Assembly (NCBI GenBank): GCA_017744315.1
Contig: JAGIBN010000002.1
Span: forward strand, 310,001-374,000
DNA length: 64,000 nucleotides
Direction: 5' to 3'
From: Porphyrobacter sp.
GTDB taxonomy: Bacteria > Pseudomonadota > Alphaproteobacteria > Sphingomonadales > Sphingomonadaceae
Below, piece by piece: positions 3,760-23,896 of this stretch. Position 1 is the first letter of the stretch; each line of letters opens with the position of its first letter. A program made the position numbers and the translations under genes. The notes below the pieces were generated by a model. The model was given only the letters and a program-made list of their open reading frames with translations. It was not told the DNA's origin and did no database searches.

Positions 3760-4050
3760 TCAGCCGCCGCGGCGCTTGGTCTCGACGAAGCCGAGCAGCG
3801 CCCCATAAGTCTCGAGCATTTCTCCGTCGACCTCGTCATCCTCGATGATGATGTCGAGCCGATCCTCGATCTCGGTCAGCAGGCCTGCGACGGCCATGGA
3901 ATCGAGTTCGGGCAGGTGGCCGAAGAGGCCGGTGTCAGCGGTAAAGGCATCGACGCGTTCAGGGCTGAGGCCCAGCACGTCGCGCAAGACCTCGCGCAGG
4001 ATCAGGTCGATCTCGGAAAACTGGCCCATGGAAACCGGCTCGCTCGACAT
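3760..4050 (-). CDS. Acyl carrier protein of the XrtA locus
   Basis: About 96 residues with an acyl/peptidyl carrier fold. The phosphopantetheine attachment Ser is in the motif LPELDSMAV near residue 50, followed by an acidic helix (EDRLDIIIEDDEVDG) typical of carrier proteins that dock basic partners. Two in-frame ATGs exist (4056 and 4050). The downstream one is preferred because the purine tract AAGGGG sits about 8 bases upstream of it, against about 2 for the first. The gene lies between a GNAT/FemAB-like acyltransferase and two hydrolases, with a ligase and a decarboxylase divergent from them, so it probably carries an activated acyl or amino-acid group for this locus, not for bulk fatty acid synthesis. 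Confidence 0.85.
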   Translation of the reverse strand: MSSEPVSMGQFSEIDLILREVLRDVLGLSPERVDAFTADTGLFGHLPELDSMAVAGLLTEIEDRLDIIIEDDEVDGEMLETYGALLGFVETKRRGG

Positions 4051-4077
4051 GCACATCGCCCCTTCTTGCGCGGCCCC

Positions 4078-5064: not shown

Positions 5065-5085
5065 ACTTTCGCACTCCAGGAAACC

Positions 5086-7823: not shown

Positions 7824-7839
7824 AGTTTTGCCTGCCGCT

Positions 7840-7854
7840 GTCCCGATCCGGGAC
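7840..7854. terminator. Possible weak terminator hairpin after the decarboxylase gene
   Basis: A 6-base inverted repeat, GTCCCG/CGGGAC, with a 3-base loop lies 17 bases after the decarboxylase stop. No T-run follows, so factor-independent termination is doubtful. It marks the boundary before the 140-base leader of the export gene. Confidence 0.3.
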
Positions 7855-7995
7855 GGCGCTCTCGTAACCCGCGAAACCGTGGGCTTTCCGCGCTTAAGAC
7901 TAACGCAATGTTCACGCTTTCCGGCGATGACGGGGTCTTATCCCCCCGAACTCCGGTGAGCCGGCCGTTCGCCCGATACTGCAAGGACGCAAGGC

Positions 7996-8637
7996 ATGCG
8001 CAAGTCATTCGTTGGCCAGTCCCTCGCCATAGCTGCGAGTGCGACACTTCTCCTGAGCGGCTGCGCAAGCAGCAGTGGGGCTCAGCTGGCGCCCGCCAGC
8101 TTCGTCTCGGCCCAGGAAGGCCCGGGTGAGGAATATGTCATCGGTCCGCTCGATCAGCTGACGATCCATGTCTGGCGCAACGACGAACTGGGCGCGAAGG
8201 TCCAGGTCCGGCCCGACGGGCGGATCACCACGCCGCTGGTCGCGGACATGACCGCCGTCGGCAAGACGCCGTCAATGCTGGCCGATGACATCCGCGTGAA
8301 GCTGTCGCAGTACATTTCCGAGCCGCTGGTGACCGTGATCGTCAATGAGTTCGCCGGCACCTTCAGTCAGCAAGTGCGCGTCGTGGGTGCCACCGAAAAG
8401 CCAGCCTCGCTGCCGTACCGTGCGAACATGACGCTGCTCGACGCGATGATCGCCGTTGGCGGGCTCAGCGAGTTCGCTGCTGGCAATCGGGCCAAGCTGG
8501 TCCGCTTCGACAAGGCCAGCGGCAGCCAGCAGGAATACAAGCTGCGTCTCGGCGACCTGCTCAAGCAGGGCGACAGCAAGGCCAACGTGATGCTGATGCC
8601 GGGTGACGTGATCATCATCCCCGAAAGCATGTTCTGA
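7996..8637 (+). CDS. XrtA-system polysaccharide export lipoprotein (Wza-like)
   Basis: A 213-residue outer-membrane lipoprotein. The signal sequence ends in the lipobox LLSGC near residue 22. The polysaccharide export (Poly_export) domain follows, with EEYVIGPLDQLTIHVW and VRPDGRITTPLVAD, and then a SLBB-type segment running from RVVGATEKPASLPY to MPGDVIIIPES. It is expected to form the periplasmic/outer-membrane export channel with the chain-length protein encoded next. The short length compared with E. coli Wza (about 380 residues) is usual for this PEP-CTERM-associated family. It follows a 172-base gap and is probably the first gene of the envelope-machinery operon; an AAGGA lies upstream of the ATG. 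Confidence 0.9.
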   Translation: MRKSFVGQSLAIAASATLLLSGCASSSGAQLAPASFVSAQEGPGEEYVIGPLDQLTIHVWRNDELGAKVQVRPDGRITTPLVADMTAVGKTPSMLADDIRVKLSQYISEPLVTVIVNEFAGTFSQQVRVVGATEKPASLPYRANMTLLDAMIAVGGLSEFAAGNRAKLVRFDKASGSQQEYKLRLGDLLKQGDSKANVMLMPGDVIIIPESMF

Positions 8638-8659: not shown

Positions 8660-10180
8660 TTGAACGCCATACTCGAAGAATTCCGGGCGGCCCTCTGGAC
8701 CATCTGGAACCGCCGCTGGCTGGCGCTGGCGGTGGCGTGGGGCGTCTGTGTCCTGGGTTGGCTGGCCATAGCTCTATTCCCGAACAGCTATTCCTCCGAG
8801 GCCAAGCTGTTTCTCCAGCTTGACGATGCCCTGGCCGAACAGATCGGTATCGGTGCTGCCACCCGGCAGAAGGACATCGACCGGGTCCGCGAGACGGTGA
8901 CGAGCGCGGCAAACCTCGAGAAGATTGTCCGCTCGACCCGCCTCGGCGACAGCGTCACGGGCGCGAGCCAGATGGAGAAGGCGGTCAAGGATCTGTCCGA
9001 GGACATCAAGATCGTCGCCGACGACAAGAACGTCTTCAAGATCACGACCACCAGTGGCCGCAGAAGCCTCTCGGACGCCGCCAATGCGCAACTCGCCCAT
9101 GAGATCGCGCAGCGTCTGGTCGACGTATTCCGCGAGGAGAACCTCGGTGGAAGCCGCGGCGAGATGCGCGAGACGATCGACTTTCTCGACCGTCAGTTGG
9201 CAGATCGTCAACGAGAGCTGGAGGAAGCCGAACAGCGCCGTCTCTCGTTCGAAGCGGAACATCCCGATCTGATCGGCGGAGCGGCTTCGATTTCAGCGCA
9301 GCTCAGCGCGACCCGTTCGGAGTTGCGGAGCGTCGAAGCGGACCTGGCAGCGGCTCAATCGGCAATGGCGGCGATTGAAGGACAGCTGGCGGGCACCCCG
9401 CGCACGCTGGTGACCAGCGGAACCGGTGGCCCTCGGGCGGCACTGGCACAGGCCGAGGCCAATCTCGCGGCGCTGGAGAGCCGGGGGCTGACCGACAACC
9501 ATCCCGATGTCGTTGCGGTGAAGAAGCAGATCGCGGCTCTCCGGCCGCAGGCGCAGGGTGCGGCGGCGGACTTGGGCGGCACGCCGAACCCGGCCTTCTC
9601 CTCGCTCCAGGCGATGAAGGTAGAGCGGCAGGCCAACGTGCAGGCCCTGCAATCGCGCGCGGCTGCGCTCAATTCCGAGATCGCCTCGATCCTTGCCAGC
9701 CAGGCCCAGGAACCCGGCGCAGCGGCCGAGGCTCAGCGCATCAGCCGCGACTACGAAGTCCTACGGGCGCAGTACGACAAGCTGTTGCAGGATCGCGAGG
9801 AGCTTCGCCTGCGCGGTCAGGTCGAGACCGAGCGCAGCGCCATTAAGTTCGAGATCATCGATCCGCCGAGCACTCCGCGAGTGCCTTCCGCTCCGAACCG
9901 CCCGCTGCTGCTGTTCGCGGTGCTGGTGATCGCGATCGGCGCCGGTGGCGGTGCGGCTTTTGCCATGGGACAGGTCAACGGAACCTTCGCGACTGCCGCG
10001 AAGCTGGAGCGAACGTTCGAGCTGCCGGTGATCGGCACGGTCTCGCATACGATGACCGAGGCGACGCGCGGGCTCCACCGTCGCAAGCTGAAGCGCTTCG
10101 TGGTGGCCTCAGGCGTGCTCTGCGGACTGTTCGTGGTGCTGGTGGGTGTCGAGTTCATCCAGCGCAGCATGGTGGCCTGA
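8660..10180 (+). CDS. XrtA-system polysaccharide chain-length determinant (Wzz/GumC-like)
   Basis: 506 residues starting at TTG. An N-terminal membrane segment (residues about 14-34) precedes a long periplasmic coiled-coil region rich in Glu, Arg, Ala and Gln. Hydrophobic segments follow near residues 412-434 and at the C-terminus (about 478-498). This is the layout of polysaccharide co-polymerases that set chain length and link inner-membrane synthesis to the Wza channel. It lacks a cytoplasmic kinase domain, which is supplied by the separate gene immediately downstream, as in other XrtA loci. Confidence 0.88.
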   Translation: MNAILEEFRAALWTIWNRRWLALAVAWGVCVLGWLAIALFPNSYSSEAKLFLQLDDALAEQIGIGAATRQKDIDRVRETVTSAANLEKIVRSTRLGDSVTGASQMEKAVKDLSEDIKIVADDKNVFKITTTSGRRSLSDAANAQLAHEIAQRLVDVFREENLGGSRGEMRETIDFLDRQLADRQRELEEAEQRRLSFEAEHPDLIGGAASISAQLSATRSELRSVEADLAAAQSAMAAIEGQLAGTPRTLVTSGTGGPRAALAQAEANLAALESRGLTDNHPDVVAVKKQIAALRPQAQGAAADLGGTPNPAFSSLQAMKVERQANVQALQSRAAALNSEIASILASQAQEPGAAAEAQRISRDYEVLRAQYDKLLQDREELRLRGQVETERSAIKFEIIDPPSTPRVPSAPNRPLLLFAVLVIAIGAGGGAAFAMGQVNGTFATAAKLERTFELPVIGTVSHTMTEATRGLHRRKLKRFVVASGVLCGLFVVLVGVEFIQRSMVA

Positions 10181-10190
10181 GGAGCGACGG

Positions 10191-11219
10191 ATGACCGAGC
10201 ACAGCAAGATCCCGCTTCCCGGCCAACGCGACAACGGCGGTTCGCTGTTTGAGCGCGCCGAGGGGCTGTTCGGCGCACACGGCGAGCTCAAGGCCGCGCC
10301 CGTCCCGACCAACCTTGCGCCTCCGACCAATCGGGTTCGTCGGCCTGCTCCGCTGCCGACTGTTCAGCGCCAGGAGGATGCGCCCGAGCAGGTCCCCGCC
10401 GGAGCTAATGCGGTAACGCCTGCTCCTGCTTCACCGACACCGACTGTCGCCGCAAAGCGGGTGGAGTTCACCGCACCTAAGCAAGTGGTCGATCGTGCGC
10501 GGCTACAAGAACAGGGCTTCATTGTCCCCGATGGCCCGGTGACCGCGCTGCTCGAAGAGTTCCGCATCGTGAAGCGCCAGCTTCTCCTTTCGATGCGAGA
10601 AGCGCGTGCCAACGCCAAGCAGTCAGCTGAGCTGCAGCGGGTGCTGGTGTGCTCGCCATTGCCAGGAGAGGGCAAGACCTTCTGCGCCACCAATCTCGCG
10701 CTGGCGGTGACGGCGGAGAAAGATGCCGAGGTCGTGCTGGTCGATGCCGACTTTGCCAAGCCTTCGATCCTCTCGCTGCTCGGACTTTCGGGCAACAAGG
10801 GTTTGATGGACGCGCTGGCTGACCCGGCCATACGCGTTGAGGACTGCGTGGTCGCCACCGATATCCCGGGCTTCTACGTCCTTCCCGCTGGGAATCGTAC
10901 CTCGTCGGATAGTGAATTCCTCGCCAGCGGTCGGACGCGAGAGGTGCTCGGCAGGCTGACGGCCGGGGCTTCCAACCGGGTGGTGATCTTTGACTCGCCG
11001 CCGGCACTGGCTGCCTCGCCGGCTGCCGAACTGGCGAAGTACGTGGGTCAGGCGCTGGTCATCTGTCGCGCGGACCAGACGGGGCAACGGGCTCTCGAAG
11101 ACGCGCTTTCGTTGTTGTCGATCTGTCCTGACATCAAGCTGCTGTTGAATTCCGCCAACTTCAGCCCAAGCGGCCGCCGCTTCGGTGCCTATTACGGATA
11201 TGGTGGGGATGGGGAGTGA
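10191..11219 (+). CDS. XrtA-associated bacterial tyrosine autokinase (CpsD/CapB type)
   Basis: 342 residues. A Pro/Ala-rich N-terminal tail of about 100 residues is followed by a BY-kinase ATPase domain: Walker A SPLPGEGKT (about residues 155-163), Walker A' VVLVDADFAKPS and Walker B VVIFDSPPA. The C-terminus has a short tyrosine-containing tail (FGAYYGYGG), the expected autophosphorylation cluster. It acts in the cytoplasm on the chain-length protein encoded just upstream to control polymer export. The gene starts 10 bases after the preceding stop, and its own stop overlaps the following GTG. Confidence 0.9.
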   Translation: MTEHSKIPLPGQRDNGGSLFERAEGLFGAHGELKAAPVPTNLAPPTNRVRRPAPLPTVQRQEDAPEQVPAGANAVTPAPASPTPTVAAKRVEFTAPKQVVDRARLQEQGFIVPDGPVTALLEEFRIVKRQLLLSMREARANAKQSAELQRVLVCSPLPGEGKTFCATNLALAVTAEKDAEVVLVDADFAKPSILSLLGLSGNKGLMDALADPAIRVEDCVVATDIPGFYVLPAGNRTSSDSEFLASGRTREVLGRLTAGASNRVVIFDSPPALAASPAAELAKYVGQALVICRADQTGQRALEDALSLLSICPDIKLLLNSANFSPSGRRFGAYYGYGGDGE

Positions 11220-12853
11220 GGCAATTCACGCTTCGCCTTGTTCTTGCGCTGGCCGCGCTCGGCCTGCCGGGCGCCGCTGAGGCTGCCGATGGCGCGCTGT
11301 CCACCAATGCGGACGGCTATCACACCGAAGTGGTCCCTTACATCGAGGCGGCTCAGGTCGTCAGCGCGCAGATCGATCCGGTCAACGATGTGGTGACCTG
11401 GACCAATTTTGCCGTTGGGCTCGACGTTTCGATCTCCGGAAAGCGAAGCGCGGCTTCGGCCGCCCTGCGTTACGAGCGCAGGATTGGGTGGAACGACGAC
11501 GACGTCGACGGCGATACTGTGAGCGGTGTCGCTCGCGCCGGCGTCGCACTGGCGGAGGGCCTGACGATCGAGGCCGGTGGCTTTGCCGCACGCACTCGTG
11601 TCGAGGCCGACGGATCGACGTCTCTTGGCGGCTTCGTCAGCGACGATTCCACCAGCCAGATCTATTCCGCCTACGCGGGCCCTTCGGTGCACACGATGGT
11701 CGACCAGGTTGAGGTCGAGGGGCACTATCGCTTCGGCTATACCAAGGTCGAAGAACCCGACGCGGTCGTCGTCGCACCGGGCCAGCAGCCGGCCGACATA
11801 TTCGACGAGAGCACGATCCACATGGCCCAAGCCCGCGCCGGGATCGGTCCTGACGTGATCGCGCCGTTCGGTTTTGGTGCCGGCGGGGGATTCACCCAGC
11901 AGGACATCTCGAATTTCGACCAGCGCGTGCGTGACGCCTACGCGCGCGCCGACGCGACACTACCGGTAAGCCCGAGTGTCGCTTTAGTCGGTGGCGTCGG
12001 CCTTGAAAACGTGGAAGTCTCGAGCCGCGACGTGGTGCGCGACGGGTCGGGCAATCCAGTGGTTGGTCCCGATGGCCGCTTCATCACGGACGAAAGTTCA
12101 CCGCGCCGCATCGATTACCAGACCGACGGCCTCATCTGGGATGCCGGCGTCATGTGGCGCCCGAGCCGCCGGACCTCGCTAGAGGCTTATGTCGGCCACC
12201 GCTACGGGTCGATGAACTACCACGGGACGTTCTCTTACGCCCCGAATGCGCGAGAGAGCTACGGCGTCGCGGTCTATGACAACCTGACCAGCTTTGGCGG
12301 GGCGCTCGTGAACCAGCTGGCCGGGCTGCCGGCGAACTTCGATGCCTTCGTCAATCCGATCAACGGCCAGGTCGGCGGCTGTGTAGCTAGCCTCGATAGC
12401 GGGAACTGCCTCGCCGGCGCGCTGGGTTCGCTGCGTTCCTCGGTGTTCAGAAGCCGCGGCATTGTCGCGAGCCATTCGCTCAATCTCGGTCGCACGCAGG
12501 TCAGCACCGGAGTCGGCTACGATCAGCGGAAGTACATCCCCGCGGCCGGTAGCGGCGTGGACGTCAGCGGCGTGACTGACGACATGATCTGGGTGGCAGT
12601 CTACGGCAGCACCCAGCTCGATCTCCATTCCTCGTTCTCGGCCGGAGCTTCGATCAACTGGTTCGACGGTGGGTTCGAAGGCGACGGCAAGTCGACCGGC
12701 TACTCGATGTCGATGGCCTACAACCGCGACTTCATACGGGGCCTGAGCGGCGTCGCCGCTGTCGGCCTCGATGGCGTGGCGCGTGACAACGTGCCCGATT
12801 TTCTCGCTGCATCGGCCCTCCTGGGCCTGCGCTATTCCTTTTTTGACCGGTGA
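11216..12853 (+). CDS. XrtA-locus outer-membrane beta-barrel protein
   Basis: 545 residues with a GTG start, a signal peptide ending LPGAAEAA near residue 24, and a body of alternating hydrophobic and polar residues rich in Tyr, Gly and Asp. The final residue pattern LGLRYSFFDR, ending near an aromatic, is typical of outer-membrane barrels. Position and character match the PEP-CTERM-associated outer-membrane protein family found between the tyrosine kinase and the ExeA-like ATPase of these loci. A role in passing polysaccharide or PEP-CTERM proteins across the outer membrane is plausible but unproven. Confidence 0.8.
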   Translation: MRQFTLRLVLALAALGLPGAAEAADGALSTNADGYHTEVVPYIEAAQVVSAQIDPVNDVVTWTNFAVGLDVSISGKRSAASAALRYERRIGWNDDDVDGDTVSGVARAGVALAEGLTIEAGGFAARTRVEADGSTSLGGFVSDDSTSQIYSAYAGPSVHTMVDQVEVEGHYRFGYTKVEEPDAVVVAPGQQPADIFDESTIHMAQARAGIGPDVIAPFGFGAGGGFTQQDISNFDQRVRDAYARADATLPVSPSVALVGGVGLENVEVSSRDVVRDGSGNPVVGPDGRFITDESSPRRIDYQTDGLIWDAGVMWRPSRRTSLEAYVGHRYGSMNYHGTFSYAPNARESYGVAVYDNLTSFGGALVNQLAGLPANFDAFVNPINGQVGGCVASLDSGNCLAGALGSLRSSVFRSRGIVASHSLNLGRTQVSTGVGYDQRKYIPAAGSGVDVSGVTDDMIWVAVYGSTQLDLHSSFSAGASINWFDGGFEGDGKSTGYSMSMAYNRDFIRGLSGVAAVGLDGVARDNVPDFLAASALLGLRYSFFDR

Positions 12854-12868
12854 ACCGGAGGTATCGCA

Positions 12869-14023
12869 ATGTTTGCTGAATTCTACGGCCTGACAGGGAA
12901 GCCCTTCCAGCTTACGCCTGACCCGGCGTTCTATTTCCGCAGCGTTACCCATCGCAAGGCGCTGTCCTACCTCGGCTATGGCCTGGCACAGGGTGAGGGC
13001 TTCATGGTCATCACCGGCGAAGTCGGGGCGGGCAAGTCCACCTTGGTGGCCCACCTGATGGGCTCGGTCGATCCGTCGCAGCTGAGCGTAGCCCAGATCG
13101 TCACCAGCAAGCTCGATGAGGAAGAGATCATCCACGTCGTGGCCCAGAGCTTCGGGCTCGAGATCATTGGGCACGACAAGGCGAGCGCGCTGGGCGCGAT
13201 CGAAGGCTTCCTGCACGACGAGGCGCGGGCGGGCCGGCGTTGCCTGCTGATCGTCGACGAGTCCCAGAACCTCTCGGTCTCGGCCCTCGAAGAACTGCGC
13301 ATGCTTTCGAACTTCCAGTTGGGAAATCACCCGCTGCTGCAGACCCTGCTGCTCGGCCAGCCCGAGTTCCGCACGACACTGCAGGGGCATCAGTCGCTCG
13401 AACAGTTGCGCCAGCGAGTGATCGCTGCGCACCACCTCGAAGCGATGGAGGCGAGCGAGGTCGAACCCTACATCGCTCACCGGCTCAAGACGGTTGGCTG
13501 GAACGGCAGTCCGCAGTTCGACGAAGCCGTGTTTGCCGAACTCTACGAAGCCAGCGGGGGCATTCCGCGGCGGGTCAACCAGATCGCCAACCGGTTGTTG
13601 CTGCTCGGCGCGGTCGAACAGAACAACCGCATCGACCTCACAATGCTCAGAACGGTAGTCGCCGAGATGGAGGGCGAGCGTGCCTTTGCTGAGGTGCCGA
13701 CGCCAGAGGTTCTCCAGCCCGAGCCGGAACTCGACCGCGTCCAAGTTACCCCGTCAGTACAGCACGTGGACCAGAGCGAGTTCGAAGCTCTCCTGGCGCT
13801 GCGCGACGCTCAGATCATTGAGCTGCAAGACGCCGTGATCGAGTTGGCCACCCACCTCAAGAACGCGACCGAAACGTCCTCCACACCGGAGGCTGTCGCC
13901 CTGAAGGATCAGGTGGCCCAGATGGAAGACCGCCTGCTCGAGCAGGAACAGGCCGTGCGCCAAACACTCGGAATGCTCATCGAGTGGATGGAAGCCGAGA
14001 TGGATCAGGCGAGGGCAGCTTAA
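12869..14023 (+). CDS. XrtA/PEP-CTERM-associated ExeA-like ATPase
   Basis: 384 residues of the ExeA/GspA-like AAA type. The N-terminus MFAEFYGLTGKPFQLTPDP is the family signature; Walker A is GEVGAGKST (residues about 50-58) and Walker B is CLLIVDESQNLS. GGIPRRVNQIANRLLL marks the sensor/lid region. The last 100 residues are predicted coiled coil. Such ATPases are found in nearly every XrtA locus and may energise assembly of the envelope apparatus. An AACCGGAGGT ribosome site precedes the ATG. Confidence 0.9.
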   Translation: MFAEFYGLTGKPFQLTPDPAFYFRSVTHRKALSYLGYGLAQGEGFMVITGEVGAGKSTLVAHLMGSVDPSQLSVAQIVTSKLDEEEIIHVVAQSFGLEIIGHDKASALGAIEGFLHDEARAGRRCLLIVDESQNLSVSALEELRMLSNFQLGNHPLLQTLLLGQPEFRTTLQGHQSLEQLRQRVIAAHHLEAMEASEVEPYIAHRLKTVGWNGSPQFDEAVFAELYEASGGIPRRVNQIANRLLLLGAVEQNNRIDLTMLRTVVAEMEGERAFAEVPTPEVLQPEPELDRVQVTPSVQHVDQSEFEALLALRDAQIIELQDAVIELATHLKNATETSSTPEAVALKDQVAQMEDRLLEQEQAVRQTLGMLIEWMEAEMDQARAA

Positions 14024-14979
14024 TCGCTGCTCTGGACCAGGCTATCGACGTGGATGCGACATTCTCTCCCGAACCGCTGATCGACCTGTCGGATGTGCAG
14101 GCCACGATCGTCAACGGCCTGTCCGTCGACGTCGAGGACTGGTTCCAGGTCGGCGCTTTCGAAAACGTCATCGAGCGGGGCGAATGGGGCAGCCTTGCCG
14201 ATCGCGTAGACCGAAACGTGCGCGAGATTCTCGACCTGTTCGATGAGGTCGAGGCCAAGGCGACCTTCTTCACACTGGGCTGGGTAGCGCAGCGGCACGG
14301 GGCTCTGTTGCGCGAGGTCGCTGCCCGCGGGCATGAGATAGCTAGTCACGGGTGGGATCATCGCCGGATCTTCACCATGGATCGCGCTGAGTTTGGCGAT
14401 GACATCCGGAAGGCGCGCCAGGTCCTTGAAGACGTGTCCGGAGCGCGCGTCATCGGATATCGCGCGCCAAGCTTTTCGATCGATCGACGCACGCCCTGGG
14501 CCTTTATGGAACTGGCCGAGCAAGGCTATGTCTATTCCTCCAGCGTCGCCCCGGTTCACCACGATCACTACGGTTGGCCCGATGCGCCGCGCTTCGCGTT
14601 CCGCCCTTTGCCGTGGAAGCCTCTGCTTGAGATCCCGGTCACAACCGCCATGTTCGGCGCCAAGCGGCTTGCGGCGGGTGGAGGCGGGTTTTTCCGCGTG
14701 CTCCCTTACGCTTTCAGCCGTTGGGCGATCCGGCAAGTCAACCGCCGCGAGCAGCGTCCGGCAATCTTCTACTTCCATCCGTGGGAGATCGATCCAGGCC
14801 AGCCTCGGGTGGCGGGAGCGCCGCTGAAGTCGCGCCTTCGGCATTACACCAAGCTTGAACAGATGGCGCCCAAGCTCCGTCATTTGGTGCGAGAGTTCCA
14901 GTGGGGCCGGATGGATCTTTTGGCCCATCGTGAAAGCGCCAGACTCGATGCAGAGCGGGCGATGGCGTCCGCGGGATGA
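13984..14979 (+). CDS. XrtA-system polysaccharide deacetylase (NodB fold)
   Basis: Up to 331 residues. The NodB motifs are present: SVDVEDWFQ (metal-binding and catalytic Asp), ASHGWDHRR (metal His pair), GYRAPSFSI and FHPWEIDP. It probably removes acetyl groups from the exported polysaccharide. The GTG at 13984 overlaps the ATPase gene by 40 bases; a GTG at 14050 would remove the overlap and start closer to the conserved core, so the true start is uncertain. The stop overlaps the FemAB gene by 4 bases. Confidence 0.87.
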   Translation: MDGSRDGSGEGSLIAALDQAIDVDATFSPEPLIDLSDVQATIVNGLSVDVEDWFQVGAFENVIERGEWGSLADRVDRNVREILDLFDEVEAKATFFTLGWVAQRHGALLREVAARGHEIASHGWDHRRIFTMDRAEFGDDIRKARQVLEDVSGARVIGYRAPSFSIDRRTPWAFMELAEQGYVYSSSVAPVHHDHYGWPDAPRFAFRPLPWKPLLEIPVTTAMFGAKRLAAGGGGFFRVLPYAFSRWAIRQVNRREQRPAIFYFHPWEIDPGQPRVAGAPLKSRLRHYTKLEQMAPKLRHLVREFQWGRMDLLAHRESARLDAERAMASAG

Positions 14980-16034
14980 ACGCGCCCTTCGCTCTGTTGA
15001 CGGAACGCGTCCGTTTGGCCGACCTGCGCCAGCCGGATGAGGTCGCGCGGATCGAGGGTTTCGTTGCGGCCTTGAACGGCCAGGTGTTCCATCGTCCCGC
15101 GTGGCTCCGGGCAATCGAGCGCGGAACCGGTCAGCGCGGGCTCGGGCTCGTGGCAGAGAAGGGCGGTATACTCACCGGTTGGCTGCCTTTGAGCGAGGTT
15201 CATTCGCCGATCTTCGGACGAATGTTGGCGTCGAGCGGATTTGCGGTCGATGGCGGGCCACTCGCCGATCGGGAGAGCACCTCGGTGCTGCTCTGCCGCG
15301 CGGCCGAAGAACTGGCCACGCGATTGTCGTGCACCACGATCGAGCTGCGCGGCGGAATTGCGCCGGAACGGTGGGTTCGGCGTAGCGATAGCCACTGTGG
15401 CTTCGTAAAGTCGCTGGCGGCAGATGATGACGCTGAACTCGCCGCGATCCCGCGCAAGCAGCGTGCTGAAGTTCGCAAGGGGCTGGAGAATGATCTCGAG
15501 ATTGCCATCAGCACTCGTGCACCCGAACAGGCCGCGTTCTACGCTGCCTTTTCCGAGAGCGTGCGCAACCTTGGAACGCCGGTCTTCCCGCGCAAACTGT
15601 TCGAGGCTGTGCTCGACGAGCTTGATGCCGATATCCTGACCGTCCGCCACCGCAGCCATCCCGTCGCCGCAGTGCTCACGATCTACCATGGTGAGACGGC
15701 CATGCCCTATTGGGGTGGCGGTGTTCGGGCGGCTCGCGGTCTCCGCGCCAACGACCGGATGTATTTCGAACTCATGCTCCATGCTCGGGCTCAGGGCTTC
15801 ACGCGGTTTGATTTCGGGCGCAGCAAAACCGGCAGCGGTAACCACGCCTACAAGAAGAACTGGGGCTTCGAGGCTGAACCCCTCACCTATTCGAGCTGGA
15901 CCGCTCCGGGTGAGAGTTCGCGGGATGCCGATCCCACGAGCAGCCGGCACGCCGCTCGGATCGCGCTGTGGCGCAAGCTGCCTTTGCCCGTCGCAAACCG
16001 TCTTGGGCCGCTGATCGCCAGGGGGTTGGGATGA
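14976..16034 (+). CDS. FemAB-family XrtA/PEP-CTERM-associated protein
   Basis: 352 residues with a tandem GNAT-like FemAB fold. It shows LNGQVFHRPAWLRAIERG near the start, KQRAEVRKGLEND in the middle and FDFGRSKTGSGNHAYKKNWGF near the C-terminus, the last being the signature of the PEP-CTERM-associated FemAB family. FemAB relatives transfer amino acids from tRNA or other donors to peptidoglycan or sugars; here the acceptor may be the polysaccharide. It is the second FemAB/GNAT-type enzyme of the locus, the first being at 4078-5064. It overlaps both neighbours by 4 bases, indicating translational coupling. Confidence 0.88.
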   Translation: MNAPFALLTERVRLADLRQPDEVARIEGFVAALNGQVFHRPAWLRAIERGTGQRGLGLVAEKGGILTGWLPLSEVHSPIFGRMLASSGFAVDGGPLADRESTSVLLCRAAEELATRLSCTTIELRGGIAPERWVRRSDSHCGFVKSLAADDDAELAAIPRKQRAEVRKGLENDLEIAISTRAPEQAAFYAAFSESVRNLGTPVFPRKLFEAVLDELDADILTVRHRSHPVAAVLTIYHGETAMPYWGGGVRAARGLRANDRMYFELMLHARAQGFTRFDFGRSKTGSGNHAYKKNWGFEAEPLTYSSWTAPGESSRDADPTSSRHAARIALWRKLPLPVANRLGPLIARGLG

Positions 16035-17263
16035 ACGGCATCCTTTTCCTGGCCCATCGCGTGCCATTTCCGCCGGATCGCGGAGACAAGATTCGCTCGC
16101 ATCATATCCTCCGGGCGCTGTCGAACCTTGGACCGGTCTATGTCGGCTGCCTCGCGGACACCGCGGCCGAGAAGGCTGGCGAAATGGAGCTGGCCCGTGT
16201 CAGCACCGGCTATTGCATGCCGGCACGGACCAAACCGCTCCCGATGGCCGGGTTCGAAGCGCTCTGCGCGGGGCAGCCGGTGAGCCTCAAGGCTTTTCAT
16301 CACCATGACTTGGCGCGATGGGTCAAGCACCTGCTCGCGACCACGGATATCGATACGATCTACGTCTTCTCCGGACAGATGGGCCAATACGTCCCCAAGG
16401 ATTGGGCGGGGCGGCTCGTGGTCGATCTGGTCGACGTCGATTCCGCGAAGTTCGAGGCCTATTCGGCCGAGAAGCCCATGCCGATGCGCTGGGTCAATAG
16501 CCGTGAGGCACGCTTGCTGCGCGAGGAAGAGGCGCGACTGGCAGCGCAAGCGACGCACACCTTGCTGGTGAGCGAGGCGGAGGCCGCACTACTGGCGTCC
16601 CGACTGCCCGAGGGGCTGCAGGCCAATATCTCGGCGGTCGGCAACGGCATCGATGCGACGGCTTTCAATCCTGGGCGGGTTCGCGCTCATCCGGCGCTCG
16701 CCAAAGAGAGCGCGAGCATCGTCTTCACCGGGCAGATGGATTACCCTCCCAATGTCGATGCCGCGCTACGCATGATCGACTGCATCATGCCGCGGATCCT
16801 CGCCGCGATGCCTGAAGCTCGGCTCCACATCGTCGGGCGTTCTCCGGCCCCGGAACTGCTCGCCCGAGATGGCATGTGCCGCTCGCGAGTTTGGGGAGAG
16901 GTTCCTGACGTTCGGCCGTTCCTGTCCGGAGCGGATGTCGTACTCGCGCCTCTGACGATTGCCCGCGGGGTTCAGAACAAGGTGCTGGAGGCCATGGCAA
17001 TGGCGCGGCCCGTCGTTTTGACGACAGCGGCGGCGACGGGTTTGCCGGGAAGCGACGGAACTCACTTCGCGGTCGCGGATACGGACCAGGACATTGCCCG
17101 CCGAACGCTGGACCTGCTCTCCGATCGTGAACGGGGATCGCGCATGGGCGCTGCCGCTCGCGATGTCGTAGTGGAGCAACGAAGCTGGCGGGCGATGCTC
17201 AAGCCGCTGCCGGGTATTGTCGGCAGGGAACGAGATCACAGCAGGCGACGTCATGCCGCGTGA
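16031..17263 (+). CDS. PEP-CTERM/XrtA-system glycosyltransferase (GT4-like)
   Basis: 410 residues of the GT-B fold. ILFLAHRVPFPPDRGDKIRSHH is the typical start of the XrtA-associated sugar transferase family. The C-terminal donor-binding half has IVFTGQMDYPPNVDAA, LHIVGRSPAPEL and the segment GVQNKVLEAMAMARPVVLT that binds the nucleotide sugar. It should add one sugar of the polysaccharide repeat unit. The ATG at 16031 overlaps the preceding stop (ATGA), and its 3' end overlaps the exosortase start by 11 bases. Confidence 0.88.
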   Translation: MNGILFLAHRVPFPPDRGDKIRSHHILRALSNLGPVYVGCLADTAAEKAGEMELARVSTGYCMPARTKPLPMAGFEALCAGQPVSLKAFHHHDLARWVKHLLATTDIDTIYVFSGQMGQYVPKDWAGRLVVDLVDVDSAKFEAYSAEKPMPMRWVNSREARLLREEEARLAAQATHTLLVSEAEAALLASRLPEGLQANISAVGNGIDATAFNPGRVRAHPALAKESASIVFTGQMDYPPNVDAALRMIDCIMPRILAAMPEARLHIVGRSPAPELLARDGMCRSRVWGEVPDVRPFLSGADVVLAPLTIARGVQNKVLEAMAMARPVVLTTAAATGLPGSDGTHFAVADTDQDIARRTLDLLSDRERGSRMGAAARDVVVEQRSWRAMLKPLPGIVGRERDHSRRRHAA

Positions 17264-18269
17264 AGCGACACTGCCAGGCGTGAGCGCCGCTGCGGTGTTG
17301 CCACGTGCGTGGCGCGGACCTCTGCAGCAACTGGCAATCGCCTGGGTCGGCTTGATCGCGCTCACCTGGGCGGACTGGGCTGAGATGGCGCACCAATGGT
17401 GGGACGTCTCGACCTACAATCATATCCTGCTGGTTCCCGCGATCCTCGCCTGGCTGGTGTGGACGCGGTGGCCCGACTTGGCGAACCTGACGCCCAAAGC
17501 CTGGTGGCCGGGTCTTGCCCTAATGGGCGCGGGCTTGCTGGCGTGGTCCGGGGGAAGCGCGGCGGAAATCAACCTCGTCAGCCAGTTTGGGGCGGTTCTG
17601 CTCCTTCAAGCGGCTGCGGTGACCCTCCTAGGCGTGCGAGTGGCAGCGGGACTGGCATTCCCGCTTGGCTACATGCTGTTCCTCGTGCCGTTCGGCGACG
17701 AGATCGTGCCGGCGCTCCAGGCGATCACAGCGAAACTGGCGATCGGCCTGACCCACGCAAGCGGTGTGCCGGCAACGATCGATGGCGTGTTCATCGACAC
17801 CCCGGCGGGCTTGTTCGAGGTCGCCGAAGCCTGTTCGGGCGTGAAGTTCCTTGTGGCCATGTTCGCTCTTGGCACCCTGGTCGCCCACCTCTGCTTTTCC
17901 GGCACCAAGCGCCGCCTGGTCTGGATGACGGCGGCAATCGTAGTCCCAGTCCTTGCCAATGGCGTTCGGGCGTGGGGCACGATCTATGTCGCGCAAAGCC
18001 AGGGCGTGGAGTTTGCGGCCGGGTTTGATCACATCGTCTACGGTTGGGTCTTCTTTGCGATCGTCATGGGCGGCCTGCTCGCCTCGTCCTGGAAGTTCTT
18101 CGATCGCTCGCCTGAGGATCAGTTGATCGATGTCGAGGCGATCGAAAACTCGCCCTTGCTTATGGCCCTGGCGACGCTTGAGATTGGGGGCTGGCGAGCG
18201 GTGCTGTTCATACTGTTTGCCACGGCAGCCACCGCCGCGGCGATGGACCGCGTCGGGCTTCTGACCTAA
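17253..18269 (+). CDS. xrtA: Exosortase A
   Basis: About 338 residues from the ATG at 17253, with about eight membrane segments. The catalytic triad of exosortases is visible: Cys in FEVAEACSGVKFLVAM, Arg in LANGVRAWG and His in DHIVYGW. The enzyme is the presumed transpeptidase that cleaves PEP-CTERM sorting signals in the inner membrane. Many XrtA proteins of sphingomonads and betaproteobacteria, as remembered, carry a C-terminal EpsI domain; this one stops soon after the last membrane helix (AAMDRVGLLT) and lacks it. The next gene starts 12 bases later, so the missing domain is not simply frameshifted downstream. Confidence 0.92.
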   Translation: MPREATLPGVSAAAVLPRAWRGPLQQLAIAWVGLIALTWADWAEMAHQWWDVSTYNHILLVPAILAWLVWTRWPDLANLTPKAWWPGLALMGAGLLAWSGGSAAEINLVSQFGAVLLLQAAAVTLLGVRVAAGLAFPLGYMLFLVPFGDEIVPALQAITAKLAIGLTHASGVPATIDGVFIDTPAGLFEVAEACSGVKFLVAMFALGTLVAHLCFSGTKRRLVWMTAAIVVPVLANGVRAWGTIYVAQSQGVEFAAGFDHIVYGWVFFAIVMGGLLASSWKFFDRSPEDQLIDVEAIENSPLLMALATLEIGGWRAVLFILFATAATAAAMDRVGLLT

Positions 18270-18281
18270 CGGTCGCTCCAC

Positions 18282-20180
18282 ATGTGCGGGATCGCTGGGA
18301 TATTCCATTGCGGCACGATCAAGCCGGTCGACCCAGCGCGGGTCGAAAGGATGTGCGACGCGCTCGTTCATCGCGGGCCTGACGGCTCCGGGGTGTGGAC
18401 AGCACCCGGCGTAGGACTTGGCCATCGCCGCCTGTCAATCATCGACCTTGCAGGCTCACCCCAGCCGATGCTCTCGGCCGACGGTGGCGCGGTGATCGTC
18501 TTCAATGGCGAGATCTACAATTTCCGCGAATTGCGGAAGGAACTCGAAGGCCTCGGCGCCCAATTCAGAACCAATGGCGATACCGAAGTAATTCTTGCCG
18601 CATATGAGCGTTGGGGCGACGAGTGCCTCTCCCGCCTCCACGGCATGTTCGCCTTCGCGCTCTACGACCTGCGGCGACGGACACTGCTTCTCGCCCGCGA
18701 CAGGCTGGGGGTGAAACCGCTGTTCATGGCTCCGCTTTCGGACGGCAGCATAGCGTTCGCCTCGGAACTCAAGGGTCTGCTCGTCCATCCTCTCCTGAGG
18801 CGTGAAGTCGACCCGCTGGCGGTCGAGGACTACCTGACCTGGGGCTATGTGCCCGATCACCGGTCCATCCTCGCGGGCGTTGAGAAACTGCCCGCAGGCC
18901 ATTTTCGTCTGCTCAGCCACGACAAGCCAGCAACTCCGCCGATCAAGTGGTGGGACGTCAGCTTCACCGAACGTCATCGCGGCTCGGAGCGTGACCTTGA
19001 GGCCGAGCTGTTGCACCACATGCGCGAGGCCGTGGCGAGCCGCATGGTGGCCGACGTACCGCTTGGCGCGTTCCTGTCGGGCGGGGTGGATTCCTCGAGC
19101 GTGGTCGCGCTGATGGCCGAGGCGAGCCGTGAGCCTGTGCGGACCTGCACGATAGGGTTCGACGTCGCTGCCGTCGACGAGACGAGCTACGCGGCGCAGA
19201 TCGCTGACAAGTTCGGCACCGACCATCGCGCGCGGCAGGTGAGCTCGGACGATTTCGACGCGCTGGATACCCTTTCCGCCATGTTCGACGAGCCCTTCGC
19301 CGACGCCTCGGCTCTTCCGACGTGGCGTGTCTGCCAATTGGCGCGCGAGAACGTGACGGTAGCCCTGTCCGGCGATGGGGCGGACGAGGCGATGGCAGGT
19401 TACCGGCGGCAGGTCTTCCAGCTTCACGAGGACCGGGTGCGAGGATTTCTTCCCGCAGCATTCAGACGCAACGTGCTGGGGCCGCTCGGCCGGGTCTATC
19501 CCAAGGCCGACTGGGCCCCGCGACCGCTTCGGGCCAAGACGACATTGCTCTCGCTCGCCGGCGACAGTTCATCTGGATACGCCCTAGGGCTCTCGGTCCT
19601 GCCGCCCGGGCTTCGGGACGGTCTCTACAGTTCGTCATTCAGGCGGGAGCTGGGGGGCTATCGGGCCGAACAACCCTTGATTGAGATGATGAACCGCGCT
19701 CCGGCTCGAAGTGGTCTCGATCGAGCGCAATATGCCGATCTGAAGTTCTGGTTGCCCGGGGACATCCTTACCAAGGTCGACCGCACCAGCATGGCCGTCA
19801 GCCTCGAAGCGCGTGAGCCCTTGCTCGATCATCGGCTGATCGAATTCGCCGCTGCCTTGCCTCATCGGATGCGGGTTCGCGGGGGGCAGGGGAAGTGGCT
19901 GCTCAAGAAGGCCATGCGTCGCTATTTGCCCGACGACATCCTCTATCGACCCAAGCAGGGCTTCGTGACGCCGATCAAGGAATGGCTGCGTGGACCGCTC
20001 GCTAACGAGGCTAAGGCAACAACGACAAACAGCGCGCTGGCGCGATCCGCCTGGTTCGACAAGTCAGCGCTAAGCTCGCTGGTTGATGCCCATTTGTCAG
20101 GTCTGGCCGACAATTCTCGCGTACTTTGGCAGCTGCTTATGCTTGAGCGATCTCTGGTCCGTTTAGGCATTTTCCCCTGA
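18282..20180 (+). CDS. XrtA/PEP-CTERM-system amidotransferase (asparagine-synthase-like)
   Basis: 632 residues. The mature N-terminus after Met is CGIAGIFH, giving the class II glutaminase Cys. The glutaminase domain continues with VHRGPDGSG and VFNGEIYNF. The synthetase domain holds the PP-loop FLSGGVDSSSV near residue 265 and LSGDGADEAMAGYRR. It transfers ammonia from glutamine to an adenylated carboxylate; in XrtA loci it is thought to amidate a uronic acid or other polysaccharide component. It is the last gene of the plus-strand XrtA run. Confidence 0.92.
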   Translation: MCGIAGIFHCGTIKPVDPARVERMCDALVHRGPDGSGVWTAPGVGLGHRRLSIIDLAGSPQPMLSADGGAVIVFNGEIYNFRELRKELEGLGAQFRTNGDTEVILAAYERWGDECLSRLHGMFAFALYDLRRRTLLLARDRLGVKPLFMAPLSDGSIAFASELKGLLVHPLLRREVDPLAVEDYLTWGYVPDHRSILAGVEKLPAGHFRLLSHDKPATPPIKWWDVSFTERHRGSERDLEAELLHHMREAVASRMVADVPLGAFLSGGVDSSSVVALMAEASREPVRTCTIGFDVAAVDETSYAAQIADKFGTDHRARQVSSDDFDALDTLSAMFDEPFADASALPTWRVCQLARENVTVALSGDGADEAMAGYRRQVFQLHEDRVRGFLPAAFRRNVLGPLGRVYPKADWAPRPLRAKTTLLSLAGDSSSGYALGLSVLPPGLRDGLYSSSFRRELGGYRAEQPLIEMMNRAPARSGLDRAQYADLKFWLPGDILTKVDRTSMAVSLEAREPLLDHRLIEFAAALPHRMRVRGGQGKWLLKKAMRRYLPDDILYRPKQGFVTPIKEWLRGPLANEAKATTTNSALARSAWFDKSALSSLVDAHLSGLADNSRVLWQLLMLERSLVRLGIFP

Positions 20181-20207: not shown

Positions 20208-20277
20208 CTGTGCCATTTTAGGAACATGACCGGTCGCCCCTCTTGTCCCGTCAATTAATTCGTTGCCAATGAGACAA

Positions 20278-20293
20278 GTGATGATAGCATCAC
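20278..20293. promoter_or_regulatory. Perfect inverted repeat in the RpfF-like gene leader
   Basis: GTGATG-ATAG-CATCAC is a perfect 6-base inverted repeat with a 4-base spacer, 58 bases before the RpfF-like ATG. It could be an operator for a dimeric regulator or a small RNA hairpin. The surrounding leader is clearly more AT-rich than the neighbouring genes, as expected for a promoter region. Confidence 0.4.
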
Positions 20294-20351: not shown

Positions 20352-21317
20352 ATGGATCGGCTGTCGGGCCAGCTTGATCGTTTGAACGATAGCCTTTCTG
20401 AATCAGACGATAGCGTTATCGGCTTCGGGCCGGGCGAGGAACGTCTTGTCCAGGAAAGCAACAGGCATCTCCGTATTGATCGGCAACTGTTCGAGTTGTC
20501 CGAGCTCGATGTACTTTATCAGGGCAATCAGGCCGCTCTCTGGACTTTCATGCATCCGGAAGGCCGGCCAAGCTTTACGCCGTCGATGCTCCATGATTTC
20601 GAAGATTGGCAGAGGCTGATCGTCGAGAATTTCGGCTCGGGCCAGGTCCCGCTGCGCTACCTCATTCTCGGTAGCAGGGCGCCAGGCGTTTACTGCTTTG
20701 GCGGTGATCTGGAGCTGTTCGAACGGTTGATCCGCAACCGCGACCGCGACGGATTGGCGCGTTACGGTTATCGCTGCGTCGAAATCCTTCATCGCAACAT
20801 GAACGCGCTCGACCTGCCGATGCTGACGATTGGCCTGGTCCAAGGCGCGGCGCTGGGCGGAGGCTTTGAAGCCTTGCTGTCTTTCGACCACATCATTGCC
20901 GAACGCAGCGCGACTTTCGGCATGCCGGAGATCCTGTTCGGCCTGTTCCCCGGAATGGGCGCTCACGCCATCCTGTCGCGCAAGCTCGGCAGTGCCATGG
21001 CCGATCGGCTCATCCTATCGAACCGGACTTACACGGCCGAGGAGATGTACGAGTTCGGGATCGTCCATTACCTCGTCGATGACGGCGAGGGCGTGGCCGC
21101 CTGCGAGGACTTCATCCAGAAGTCTGAAAGACGTCACCCCGGCCTGGTCAACGCGCGCAAAGCCATGCGAGTGGCCAGCCCGATCGACCTCCAGGAACTC
21201 AAGCGGATTGTCGACCTTTGGGCCGACGCTGCACTTCAGCTCACCGATGGCGATCTCAAGGTCATGGGCCGGTTGACACGAGCTCAGCAGCGCGTCGGTA
21301 ATAAGGCCGCGGCCTGA
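20352..21317 (+). CDS. RpfF-like enoyl-CoA hydratase/isomerase, candidate DSF signal synthase
   Basis: 321 residues with the crotonase fold. The oxyanion-hole segment is GSRAPGVYCFGGDLELFERL, and the two glutamates expected in RpfF (Glu141 and Glu161 in Xanthomonas) fit GGGFEALLSFD and FGMPEILFGLFPGMGA. The N-terminal extension of about 70 residues and the overall length match RpfF better than ordinary enoyl-CoA hydratases of about 260 residues. RpfF dehydrates and hydrolyses 3-hydroxyacyl-ACP to release cis-2-unsaturated fatty acid signals. The ATG is preceded by a G-rich ribosome site about 8 bases upstream. It lies alone after the XrtA locus, with its own leader. Confidence 0.82.
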   Translation: MDRLSGQLDRLNDSLSESDDSVIGFGPGEERLVQESNRHLRIDRQLFELSELDVLYQGNQAALWTFMHPEGRPSFTPSMLHDFEDWQRLIVENFGSGQVPLRYLILGSRAPGVYCFGGDLELFERLIRNRDRDGLARYGYRCVEILHRNMNALDLPMLTIGLVQGAALGGGFEALLSFDHIIAERSATFGMPEILFGLFPGMGAHAILSRKLGSAMADRLILSNRTYTAEEMYEFGIVHYLVDDGEGVAACEDFIQKSERRHPGLVNARKAMRVASPIDLQELKRIVDLWADAALQLTDGDLKVMGRLTRAQQRVGNKAAA

Positions 21318-21328
21318 GGCTGTTCCGG

Positions 21329-21345
21329 CGCTCGCTCAGCGAGCG
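21329..21345. terminator. Hairpin between convergent RpfF-like and pirin genes
   Basis: CGCTCGC-TCA-GCGAGCG is a perfect 7-base stem. Its loop is the pirin stop codon (TCA read on the plus strand). It lies 11 bases after the RpfF-like stop, so it could end transcription from both sides, although no clear T-run follows. Confidence 0.5.
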
Positions 21346-22034
21346 TCGACCATCACCAGCTCGACGTCTTCGATCGCCTCGACCGTGATCGCCTCCTCGC
21401 CGGTGATGGCTATGCCATCCCGCGGGTTGGCTTCCTCACCGTTGATGCGGATCCGTCCGCCGGTGGCCACGAGGTATTGGTGGCGCCAGGGCGCGGCTTC
21501 GTAAGTCACCGTATCGCCGGCCGGTAGCGTGGCGGCGAGGATCTTCGCGTCGCTTCGGATAGGCAGCGAGTTGTCGCCTTCCGGATCGCCACTCGCCAGG
21601 ATCTCCCAGCGTCCGGCCCGGTCTCCACGGGGAAACTCACGCTGGCCCCAGTCGGGTGCCTCCCCTGCGCGATCAGGCATGATCCAGATCTGGAACAGCG
21701 AGGTATCCTCGTCCTCGAGGTTGTACTCGGCGTGCGTGACCCCGGTTCCGGCGCTCATGACCTGCACGTCTCCGGCGCCGGTCCGTCCGGTGTTGCCCAT
21801 GCTGTCCTTGTGGGTGATCGCTCCGCTCCTGACGAAGGTGATGATCTCCATGTCGCGGTGCGGATGGGGCGGGAAACCGCTTTTGGCCGCGATCAGATCG
21901 TCGTTCCAGACTCGGATACGGCCCCAGCCCATGCGGTCGAGGTCATGATAGTCAGCGAAACTGAAATGAAAGCGGGTATCGAGCCAGCCATGATTGCGAT
22001 GCGCCAGGCCGGCGAACGGACGGATTTCGATCAT
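21336..22034 (-). CDS. Pirin family protein (bicupin)
   Basis: 232 residues. The N-terminal cupin carries the metal-ligand pattern HPHRDMEIITFV and later GTGVTHAEYN, with RVWNDD preceding. The second cupin is more degenerate (RIRINGEEANPRDGIAITGEE). Bacterial pirins bind a metal; several, such as YhaK/YhhW relatives, have quercetin 2,3-dioxygenase activity, and others act as redox-sensing regulators. The physiological role here is unknown. It is convergent with the RpfF-like gene. Confidence 0.88.
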   Translation of the reverse strand: MIEIRPFAGLAHRNHGWLDTRFHFSFADYHDLDRMGWGRIRVWNDDLIAAKSGFPPHPHRDMEIITFVRSGAITHKDSMGNTGRTGAGDVQVMSAGTGVTHAEYNLEDEDTSLFQIWIMPDRAGEAPDWGQREFPRGDRAGRWEILASGDPEGDNSLPIRSDAKILAATLPAGDTVTYEAAPWRHQYLVATGGRIRINGEEANPRDGIAITGEEAITVEAIEDVELVMVDAR

Positions 22035-22786: not shown

Positions 22787-23896
22787 CTACACCTCGCCGT
22801 GGCCTTCCGCCATATAATCGGCGCTCTGCATTTCCTTGAGCCGGCTCACCGTACGATCGAATTCGAAACGGCCATCACCTACAGGATAGAGGCCTTCCGG
22901 CTCGGCCGCTGCCGAGGCGAGGAGCTTGACCTTGTTCTCGTAGAGCGCGTCGATCAGGGTCACGAACCGGGCGGCCTCGTTACGCATCTCGGGCCCCATG
23001 ATCGGAATCCCGACCACGATCACGGTGTGATAGGTGCGAGCCACCGCGAGATAGTCTGACGCGCCGCGCGCTTCGCCACACAGGCGTTTGAAGCTGAACA
23101 CCGCGACGCCCTTGAGGCTCTTCGGTACGCGAAGGGTTCGTCCGCCGCCAACGTCGAGCTCCGCAGAGGGCACATGCTCGGCATCCTCCGGGGGATAGTC
23201 GGTCAGGCGGAAGAAGGCCTCCCGCAGGTGTGCTGTCGCGTGGCCGTCAGCCGGAGAATACCAGGTATCCATGCCGCCGAGACGCTCGAGGCGATAATCG
23301 ACCGGTCCGTTGAGCTCGATGACTCCCAGTTCCTTCTCGATGAGGTCGATGAACGGCAGGAAGTGCTCGCGGTTGAGGCCGTCCTTGTAGAGGTCGCGGG
23401 GAGGGCGGTTGGAGGTCGTCACAACCGTTACGCCCTCGTCACAGATCAGCGCCCGGAACAGGCGGCTCATGATCATGGCGTCGGCGCTGTTGTTGACCAC
23501 CATCTCGTCGAACGCGAGGCAGCGCAGGTTTTCCGCGAGCGCTTGGGCGACCTGGGGGATTGGATCGCCGCTTTCGCTCTTGCGCGCTTCGCGTAGGCGC
23601 TGGTGGACTTCGAGCATGAAGGCGTGGAAGTGAACCCGTCGCTTGTCCTCGATGGCCAGCGTCGCGTGGAACAAGTCCATCAGCATCGACTTGCCCCGGC
23701 CGACGCCACCCCAGAGGTAGAGTCCCTTCGGGCGCTTCGGACGGGCGAAGAACCGACCGAGCAATCCGCCGGCGGGGACTGCTTCAAGCTCGCGCTGAAG
23801 GGCGCTCAGCCGTTCGGCCGCAGCTTTCTGCGCGGAGTCGGGCTGAAGCTCGCCCGCAGTTACGAGCGCACGATATCGATCGAGCAGTCCGCTCAG
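22787..23896 (-). CDS. zapE: Cell division protein ZapE (AFG1-like ATPase), non-standard start
   Basis: An AAA ATPase with Walker A in [15 protein letters not shown] and Walker B in LRCLAFDEM. The family member in E. coli acts at the division site under stress. The first standard start codon in frame is a TTG at 23764, which would give 325 residues and begin only about 12 residues before the P-loop region. However, the frame upstream reads [18 protein letters not shown], the normal ZapE N-terminus, and no ATG, GTG or TTG precedes it. The likely start is a CTG at 23896 overlapping the sdhB stop (CTGA), giving about 369 residues, the family's usual size. Confidence 0.8.

Follow-up and report, generated by a model that had tools for sequence, protein, structure and literature searches.

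An RpfF-family crotonase behind the XrtA exopolysaccharide locus of Porphyrobacter sp. and a candidate membrane GGDEF-EAL receptor encoded elsewhere in the genome

In a 64,000-nucleotide stretch of Porphyrobacter sp. DNA (the window), the open reading frame at 20352-21317 belongs, by its sequence, to the RpfF family of diffusible signal factor (DSF) synthases and encodes no ordinary enoyl-CoA hydratase. Comparison with related genomes revealed, besides this family placement, a conserved place of the gene, its co-occurrence with a candidate sensor, a side-by-side, convergent arrangement of the two in the nearest outgroups, and a palindrome also present at the promoter of an exopolysaccharide (EPS) locus. 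We consider it probable that these features belong to a split DSF circuit, in which expression of the synthase would be coupled to EPS, with an orphan c-di-GMP enzyme acting as the receptor; every step of this circuit beyond membership of the RpfF family is one that we infer.

Identity of the crotonase

An open-frame check found the crotonase frame intact from the ATG at 20352 to the stop at 21317 on the plus strand. The features of the window that bear on it are the following.

3760-4056, minus strand: acyl carrier protein (ACP) of the XrtA locus (98 aa; motif DSM, read by eye)
5023-7823, plus strand: acyl-CoA ligase (TIGR03098) and PLP decarboxylase (TIGR03099) of the XrtA locus
7839-7855, plus strand: palindrome TGTCCCGATCCGGGACG upstream of the EPS export gene (21.5 bits)
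7996-8637, plus strand: XrtA-system EPS export protein (TIGR03027), first gene after the palindrome
8660-12853, plus strand: EPS chain length determinant (TIGR03007), tyrosine autokinase-like protein (TIGR03018), and an unassigned 545-aa protein
12869-17263, plus strand: XrtA-system ATPase, deacetylase, FemAB-like protein, and glycosyltransferase
17217-18269, plus strand: exosortase XrtA (TIGR03109; 322.7 bits versus a cut-off of 208)
18282-20180, plus strand: XrtA-system amidotransferase, asparagine-synthase-like (TIGR03108; 963.8 bits), directly 5' of the crotonase
20209-20225, plus strand: candidate operator TGTGCCATTTTAGGAAC, a weak copy of the EPS-promoter palindrome (8.3 bits)
20263-20290, plus strand: sigma-70-like promoter candidate, TTGCCA-16-TAGCAT with TG (consensus match only)
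20352-21317, plus strand: RpfF-family crotonase, predicted DSF-type cis-2-enoic acid synthase (321 aa; E173/E193 as the catalytic pair)
21336-22034, minus strand: pirin-like cupin on the right flank, present in some relatives too
22787-23764, minus strand: zapE, conserved right-hand neighbour of the crotonase

The XrtA/PEP-CTERM EPS locus has its marker genes, namely the XrtA, export, chain length, ATPase, deacetylase, FemAB, glycosyltransferase, and amidotransferase genes; its tyrosine autokinase-like protein matches TIGR03018 with 176.7 bits, under the cut-off of 230.65. The amidotransferase gene (asnB) comes right after XrtA and is followed, after a gap of 171 bp, by the crotonase.

The crotonase matched NF006452 with 347.5 bits, more than expected by chance and above the curated cut-off of 177, and stayed below the NCBIfam equivalog of Xanthomonas-type RpfF, NF053515 (210.8 versus 550 bits). 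Because two Burkholderia/Cronobacter-type relatives (L100 and L099) also stay below the latter cut-off, at ~181 bits, while L097, which is placed with 7zq7, passes it with 580.2 bits, NF053515 marks the Xanthomonas subtype only. Thus, the window crotonase is not to be filed under that subtype. Its top sequence matches in the PDB were 7zq7, 3m6m, 5fus, and 6dgn (187.5, 169.5, 137.5, and 136.9 bits), which are DSF synthases or their kin, 3m6m being Xanthomonas RpfF, 5fus BCAM0581, and 6dgn Cronobacter RpfF; the next crotonase in this search scored 62 bits. In the window's own genome (G000), the search for other RpfF-like proteins yielded no further one, only four crotonases with weak scores (E 7.5e-14 to 2.5e-4). 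The nearest named relative is from Croceibacterium selenioxidans LX-88, with 96% identity and a neighbourhood identical in kind.

In a tree of 57 rows, obtained from 81 crotonase rows after removal of 24 (near-duplicates, along with three of the genome's own four other crotonases), the window sequence fell in a clade of 20 rows with support of 100/100. This clade and the crotonases adjoining membrane GGDEF-EAL genes together form a group of 24 rows (100/99). For loci L033-L062, 28 of 30 had been recovered for the crotonase set, L052 and L058 being left out. The root of the tree and the join of the Burkholderia-type rows are unsure because both involve long branches: a very long one leads to the outgroup, a single ordinary hydratase, and another (L104) is met by the Burkholderia-type rows. 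The window clade sits on the path between two characterised DSF synthase types, Xanthomonas RpfF (3m6m) and BCAM0581 (5fus).

E173 and E193 align with E141 and E161 of Xanthomonas RpfF, and the equivalents of its catalytic and pocket residues E141, E161, M170, W258, and L276 were all kept in the alignment. The original prediction had counted the length, the N-terminal extension, and the two glutamates as marks of RpfF, and these did not hold up. The glutamate pair does not discriminate RpfF, since two of the four other crotonases of the genome (L002 and L003) carry both residues. The extension exceeds that of RpfF (the alignment with Xcc RpfF starts at residue 54), is poorly conserved, and has pLDDT below 50 over residues 1-39 of the AlphaFold model. 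In this model (six rows; mean pLDDT 72.9), residues 111-116 and 194-198 are also low. A structure search with it returned DSF synthases as the first five entries (Z 31.9 to 29.1), followed by the fatty acid oxidation complex 1wdk (Z 27.0); the predicted fold is closest to that of DSF synthases.

These results also bear on the reading of the protein as an ordinary enoyl-CoA hydratase that serves fatty acid oxidation, with which it shares the crotonase fold and both glutamates. We rejected this reading, which now appears exceedingly improbable, on the PDB sequence matches, the alignment, the tree, and the structure search: sequence, tree, and fold are all closer to DSF synthases, and the window crotonase, unlike the genome's four others, retains the C-terminal RpfF positions W258/Q280. 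The RpfF-like identity proposed in the original prediction is therefore upheld, as the protein groups with ordinary hydratases neither by sequence nor by tree nor by fold and, in a phylogeny containing both families, lies between characterised DSF synthases.

Genomic place and the palindrome of the EPS promoter

We surveyed 196 genomes of the order at an E-value of 1e-30 or better and found the crotonase in 28. Of these, 18 belong to the window clade and three (G122, G132, and G188) are close outgroups; in three more, an RpfC-like kinase adjoins the crotonase (G071 and G180 by Pfam, G152 by gene order), and in the other four the crotonases lie in long frames (G007, G016, G033, and G040). Both scanned long frames are fusions of an RpfF-family crotonase to a haem-oxygenase-like iron redox domain (PF14518; L090:8019-9911 and L094:8820-10886, in G007 and G016), similar long frames occur at L091 and L093, and the fusion at L090 lies near a hybrid histidine kinase; such a fusion is possibly a DSF-modifying or -decarboxylating enzyme. 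A further arrangement, at L067:826-6540 of a Beijerinckiaceae MAG, places an RpfF-family synthase beside a hybrid kinase and a REC-PAS-GGDEF-EAL protein, as a mixture of RpfC- and RpfR-like organization.

Within the window clade, XrtA lies at most 9 kb from the crotonase in 16 of the 18 genomes, and zapE is near it in all 18 (with two intervening genes at L078). The place behind the polysaccharide locus, first noticed in the window, is thus conserved. Additional open reading frames separate the amidotransferase from the synthase at L077, L078, and L080; those at L077:6510-10638 and L078:5441-10461 encode parts of ABC exporters, which might export the acid, and the set at L080 is similar by gene layout. 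G030 and G184 have no XrtA above the cut-off and no amidotransferase within the fetched 19 kb, and the synthase is still present. Therefore, the synthase needs neither XrtA nor the amidotransferase.

In 20 XrtA genomes without the crotonase, the amidotransferase (or pirin) gene directly adjoins zapE in 10, an EAL-motif frame fills the slot in 4 (three were scanned with Pfam and confirmed), the context differs in 5, and 1 was undecided. G000 holds a second XrtA locus (L226; G000:C9:547000-566000) with its own zapE and sdhB, the latter sharing 94% identity with its L078 counterpart (genus g15), which, together with an assembly contamination of 5.24%, points to a second organism or to a large transfer within the assembly. 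At this second locus (L226:13064-15442), as at L230, L231, L232, and L233 of genus g15, the slot between amidotransferase and zapE holds an EAL-domain protein, with CHASE2 in three of the four scanned (L226 and L230-L232).

The dedicated ACP of the locus had been taken as a sign that signal and polymer production are linked. This argument fails because the ACP is equally present in all seven crotonase-free XrtA loci examined (G145, G025, G110, G138, G159, G129, and G134), and we ruled out a link through it. The same count speaks against a purely metabolic role, in which an RpfF-family thioesterase/dehydratase would release or edit a fatty acid for EPS or for the XrtA machinery, perhaps together with the ACP and acyl-CoA ligase encoded there, and no signal would be made. 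Such a role would suit the location of the gene after the XrtA operon, seen in 16 of 18 genomes, the ACP and ligase within the locus, and the palindrome described below. We nevertheless regard it as unlikely, given that half of the 20 crotonase-free loci join amidotransferase/zapE or pirin/zapE directly, that the synthase remains without XrtA in G030 and G184, and that it co-occurs with a signalling enzyme.

In 19 of 21 loci, the EPS export gene is preceded at a distance of 138-191 bp by a palindrome, GTCC[CT]-N5-GGGA; these are 13 of the 15 fetched loci with the synthase, 5 of 5 without it, and the window. The window's EPS copy is the best match of the resulting matrix in the window, being itself part of that matrix. 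Trained on EPS export sites alone and applied at a threshold of 8 bits or more, the matrix found a site ahead of the crotonase in 14 of 20 regions, of which those of the window and LX-88 are nearly identical. In 40 shuffled sets the count averaged 0.5 and never exceeded 3, and tiled control windows, which cover whole loci and are mostly coding, matched in 23 of 1576 cases (1.5%). The window's own operator copy is weak and, at 8.3 bits, not significant in the window alone (6 matches of at least 8 bits versus 13 in one shuffle); it is supported by the relatives. No match was found upstream of the crotonase in the other 6 of the 20 regions (L065, L085, L077, L080, L076, and L083), two of which have genes inserted behind asnB, or at the seven crotonases outside the window clade (0/7). 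G000 contains three copies of the exact form GTCCC-N5-GGGAC and eight of the backwards control pattern. Each of the two XrtA export genes of G000 has one exact copy upstream; the third exact copy (C12), beside a hisF-like frame named by eye, was taken as chance.

Alternatively, a true DSF synthase might merely be parked behind the EPS locus, its signal controlling other things and the palindrome being a terminator or an unrelated element. The sites closely follow stop codons, the EPS palindrome lying 1-42 bp past that of the decarboxylase, a position as for a terminator, but no T tract was found in the window. The crotonase has a promoter candidate of its own, the TTGCCAA 7-mer of which recurs in 11 of 20 upstream regions, and the synthase is kept after loss of XrtA; both agree with parking, as does the weakness of the window's operator copy. 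L077 and L080, which have the site neither after asnB nor before the crotonase, also fit parking. At L078, by contrast, the site precedes the crotonase and is absent after asnB, and among crotonase-free loci only 3 of 21 carry it after asnB at 8 bits or more. Thus, the palindrome is not a feature of the amidotransferase gene. One of these three is G091, which belongs to a genus with synthase-bearing members and has itself retained the sensor. Two of only three exact genome copies lie upstream of XrtA export genes, which likewise speaks against parking, and on balance parking seems to us an improbable account. The proposed link between signal and polymer accordingly keeps the conserved position and the shared palindrome in its favour and loses the ACP.

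A PrsR-family protein scored above the cut-off in all 14 crotonase genomes searched. The main text of Haft 2006 (PMC1569441) leads one to expect a sigma-54 element alongside PrsR. Unlike the loci treated there, those compared here yielded a sigma-54-like element once in 41 upstream regions when searched with a simple pattern, and we discarded such a promoter at the EPS and crotonase genes.

A membrane GGDEF-EAL protein as candidate receptor

The crotonase gene is convergent with a GGDEF-EAL gene in G122, G188, G132, and Methylobacterium haplocladii, and an N-terminal membrane domain is common to all four GGDEF-EAL proteins. A profile of this domain (A1), made from three of the four and run on synthase-bearing genomes only, gave a single strong match (E 1e-35 to 1e-44) per genome throughout the 18 genomes of the window clade; the matching open frames, of 652-722 aa, are unlinked to the synthase. 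The window itself lacks a sensor gene, as had been remarked earlier; the candidate of this genome is encoded elsewhere, at G000:C9:268014-269927 on the minus strand, with intact GGDEF and EAL motifs. Despite the signs of a second organism in G000, the candidate is tied to the window organism by its 95.6% identity to the corresponding protein of LX-88. An mdh-like gene (named by eye) is found in the sensor region at 11 of 20 loci.

Pfam detected GGDEF and EAL domains only; the N-terminal part is hydrophobic, with 4 to 7 stretches by hydropathy, and had no Pfam match in the proteins scanned. Homology of this membrane domain to that of RpfC found no support (hhalign probability 0.7%) and was dismissed. 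No FI-PAS-GGDEF-EAL sensor adjoins the synthase, the candidate being unlinked and its N-terminal domain differing from that of RpfR, whose FI domain binds RpfF and is not visible here, and no RpfC-type membrane hybrid kinase was found among the neighbours of the window-clade synthase.

A wider profile (A2) detected the full-length sensor in 31 of 196 genomes: in all 21 with this crotonase type, in 0 of 7 with other RpfF types, and in 10 of 168 without a crotonase (10 of 175 others). The association (Fisher p 5e-21) ignores the kinship of the genomes and leans towards sensors in synthase genomes, because A2 was built from 22 synthase-bearing genomes only. In many genomes the sensor searches scored part of the first-look candidates (e.g., 15 of 23 or 8 of 25), and weak matches (E 1e-10 to 1e-16; six places, frames of 380-817 aa) were not counted as sensors. 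Across five variable genera (38 genomes with a genus code), 10 genomes have both genes, none the synthase only, one the sensor only, and 27 neither, so that the sensor varies in step with the synthase in all five. Furthermore, the sensor tree, which does not contain G019, repeats several groupings of the synthase tree.

An RNAG motif in the membrane domain is kept in 24 of 24 sensors of synthase-bearing genomes and altered in 8 of 10 sensors of sphingomonads without the synthase; GGDEF is changed in the synthase-free sensors of G134, G077, G050, G169, and G100. On a tree that leaves out the outlying sensors G207, G229, and G822, two of four independent contrasts differed, both in the expected way (sign test p 0.5), and we dropped the correlation between motif and synthase, which has no significance once descent is corrected for. 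A class-wide search found a sensor-like domain in 6 of 385 genomes. G207, G229, G822, and the sphingomonad G019 have the domain without a synthase, so it is not confined to synthase-bearing genomes. More distant forms of the domain also occur in other Alphaproteobacteria without the synthase (L251-L253; weak A1/A2 matches).

Only 1 of 19 sensor regions reached 8 bits with the palindrome matrix, and shared control of the sensor is therefore not claimed. Since G000 has 17 EAL-domain matches in total, other c-di-GMP enzymes could be the receptor; the patterns of co-occurrence and convergence make the multi-pass membrane GGDEF-EAL protein encoded away from the synthase the likely one.

The proposed circuit and known DSF systems

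According to PMC6361424, RpfF dehydrates 3-hydroxyacyl-ACP, hydrolyses the thioester, and frees the acid; low BDSF leaves the phosphodiesterase activity of RpfR low and c-di-GMP high. Because of its family membership and kept active-site residues, the window synthase is predicted to share this chemistry: it would dehydrate 3-hydroxyacyl-ACP to cis-2-enoyl-ACP and then release a free cis-2-unsaturated acid. In this clade the gene stands behind the XrtA EPS operon and away from the sensor, mostly with the palindrome of the export promoter, and through this common element the signal would be made when EPS is made. By analogy with RpfF-RpfR, EPS induction would raise the acid, which the membrane GGDEF-EAL protein would read in the membrane, changing c-di-GMP. 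The sensor-only genomes have a precedent, because E. coli, according to the same paper, keeps an RpfR homologue in the absence of a synthase. More tentatively, and with chances somewhat short of even, this may be a third kind of DSF circuit, with a membrane GGDEF-EAL receptor in which RNAG would hold the carboxylate, a synthase in the XrtA regulon, and a flow from EPS through the signal to c-di-GMP.

Like Xanthomonas campestris RpfF (3m6m/3m6n), the window protein is a crotonase-fold synthase with the active-site positions kept (37% identity over 64-314; Z 30.5). Unlike it, the protein scores below the NCBIfam RpfF equivalog cut-off, and in place of RpfC/RpfG, with no RpfC-type kinase adjoining, its partner candidate is the membrane GGDEF-EAL protein. 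The RpfF-RpfR pairs of Burkholderia and Cronobacter (5fus and 6dgn) are similar in having a GGDEF-EAL partner, convergent in the outgroups here, and include the top structure match (Z 31.9). In contrast to RpfR, the sensor candidate has a hydrophobic N-terminal domain and no FI-PAS module, and it is unlinked in the window clade. The EPS locus, for its part, resembles the XrtA/PEP-CTERM locus in the main text of Haft 2006 (PMC1569441) in its marker genes and in the PrsR-family proteins; neither "crotonase" nor "enoyl" occurs in that main text. In the literature collection searched, a term search found no paper on rpfF in Sphingomonadales, and a search on exosortase and diffusible signal factor gave LuxI/LuxR work only, with no such system among the matches listed.

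What is known of DSF signalling comes mainly from gamma- and betaproteobacteria that are pathogens of plants and humans. Here, a synthase travels with an orphan c-di-GMP enzyme of the membrane and with a promoter element of the EPS locus, which offers a directly testable link between DSF, c-di-GMP, and EPS, with the membrane GGDEF-EAL protein as a candidate for a new class of receptor. Such a link would concern environmental bacteria, including the named strain Croceibacterium selenioxidans LX-88.
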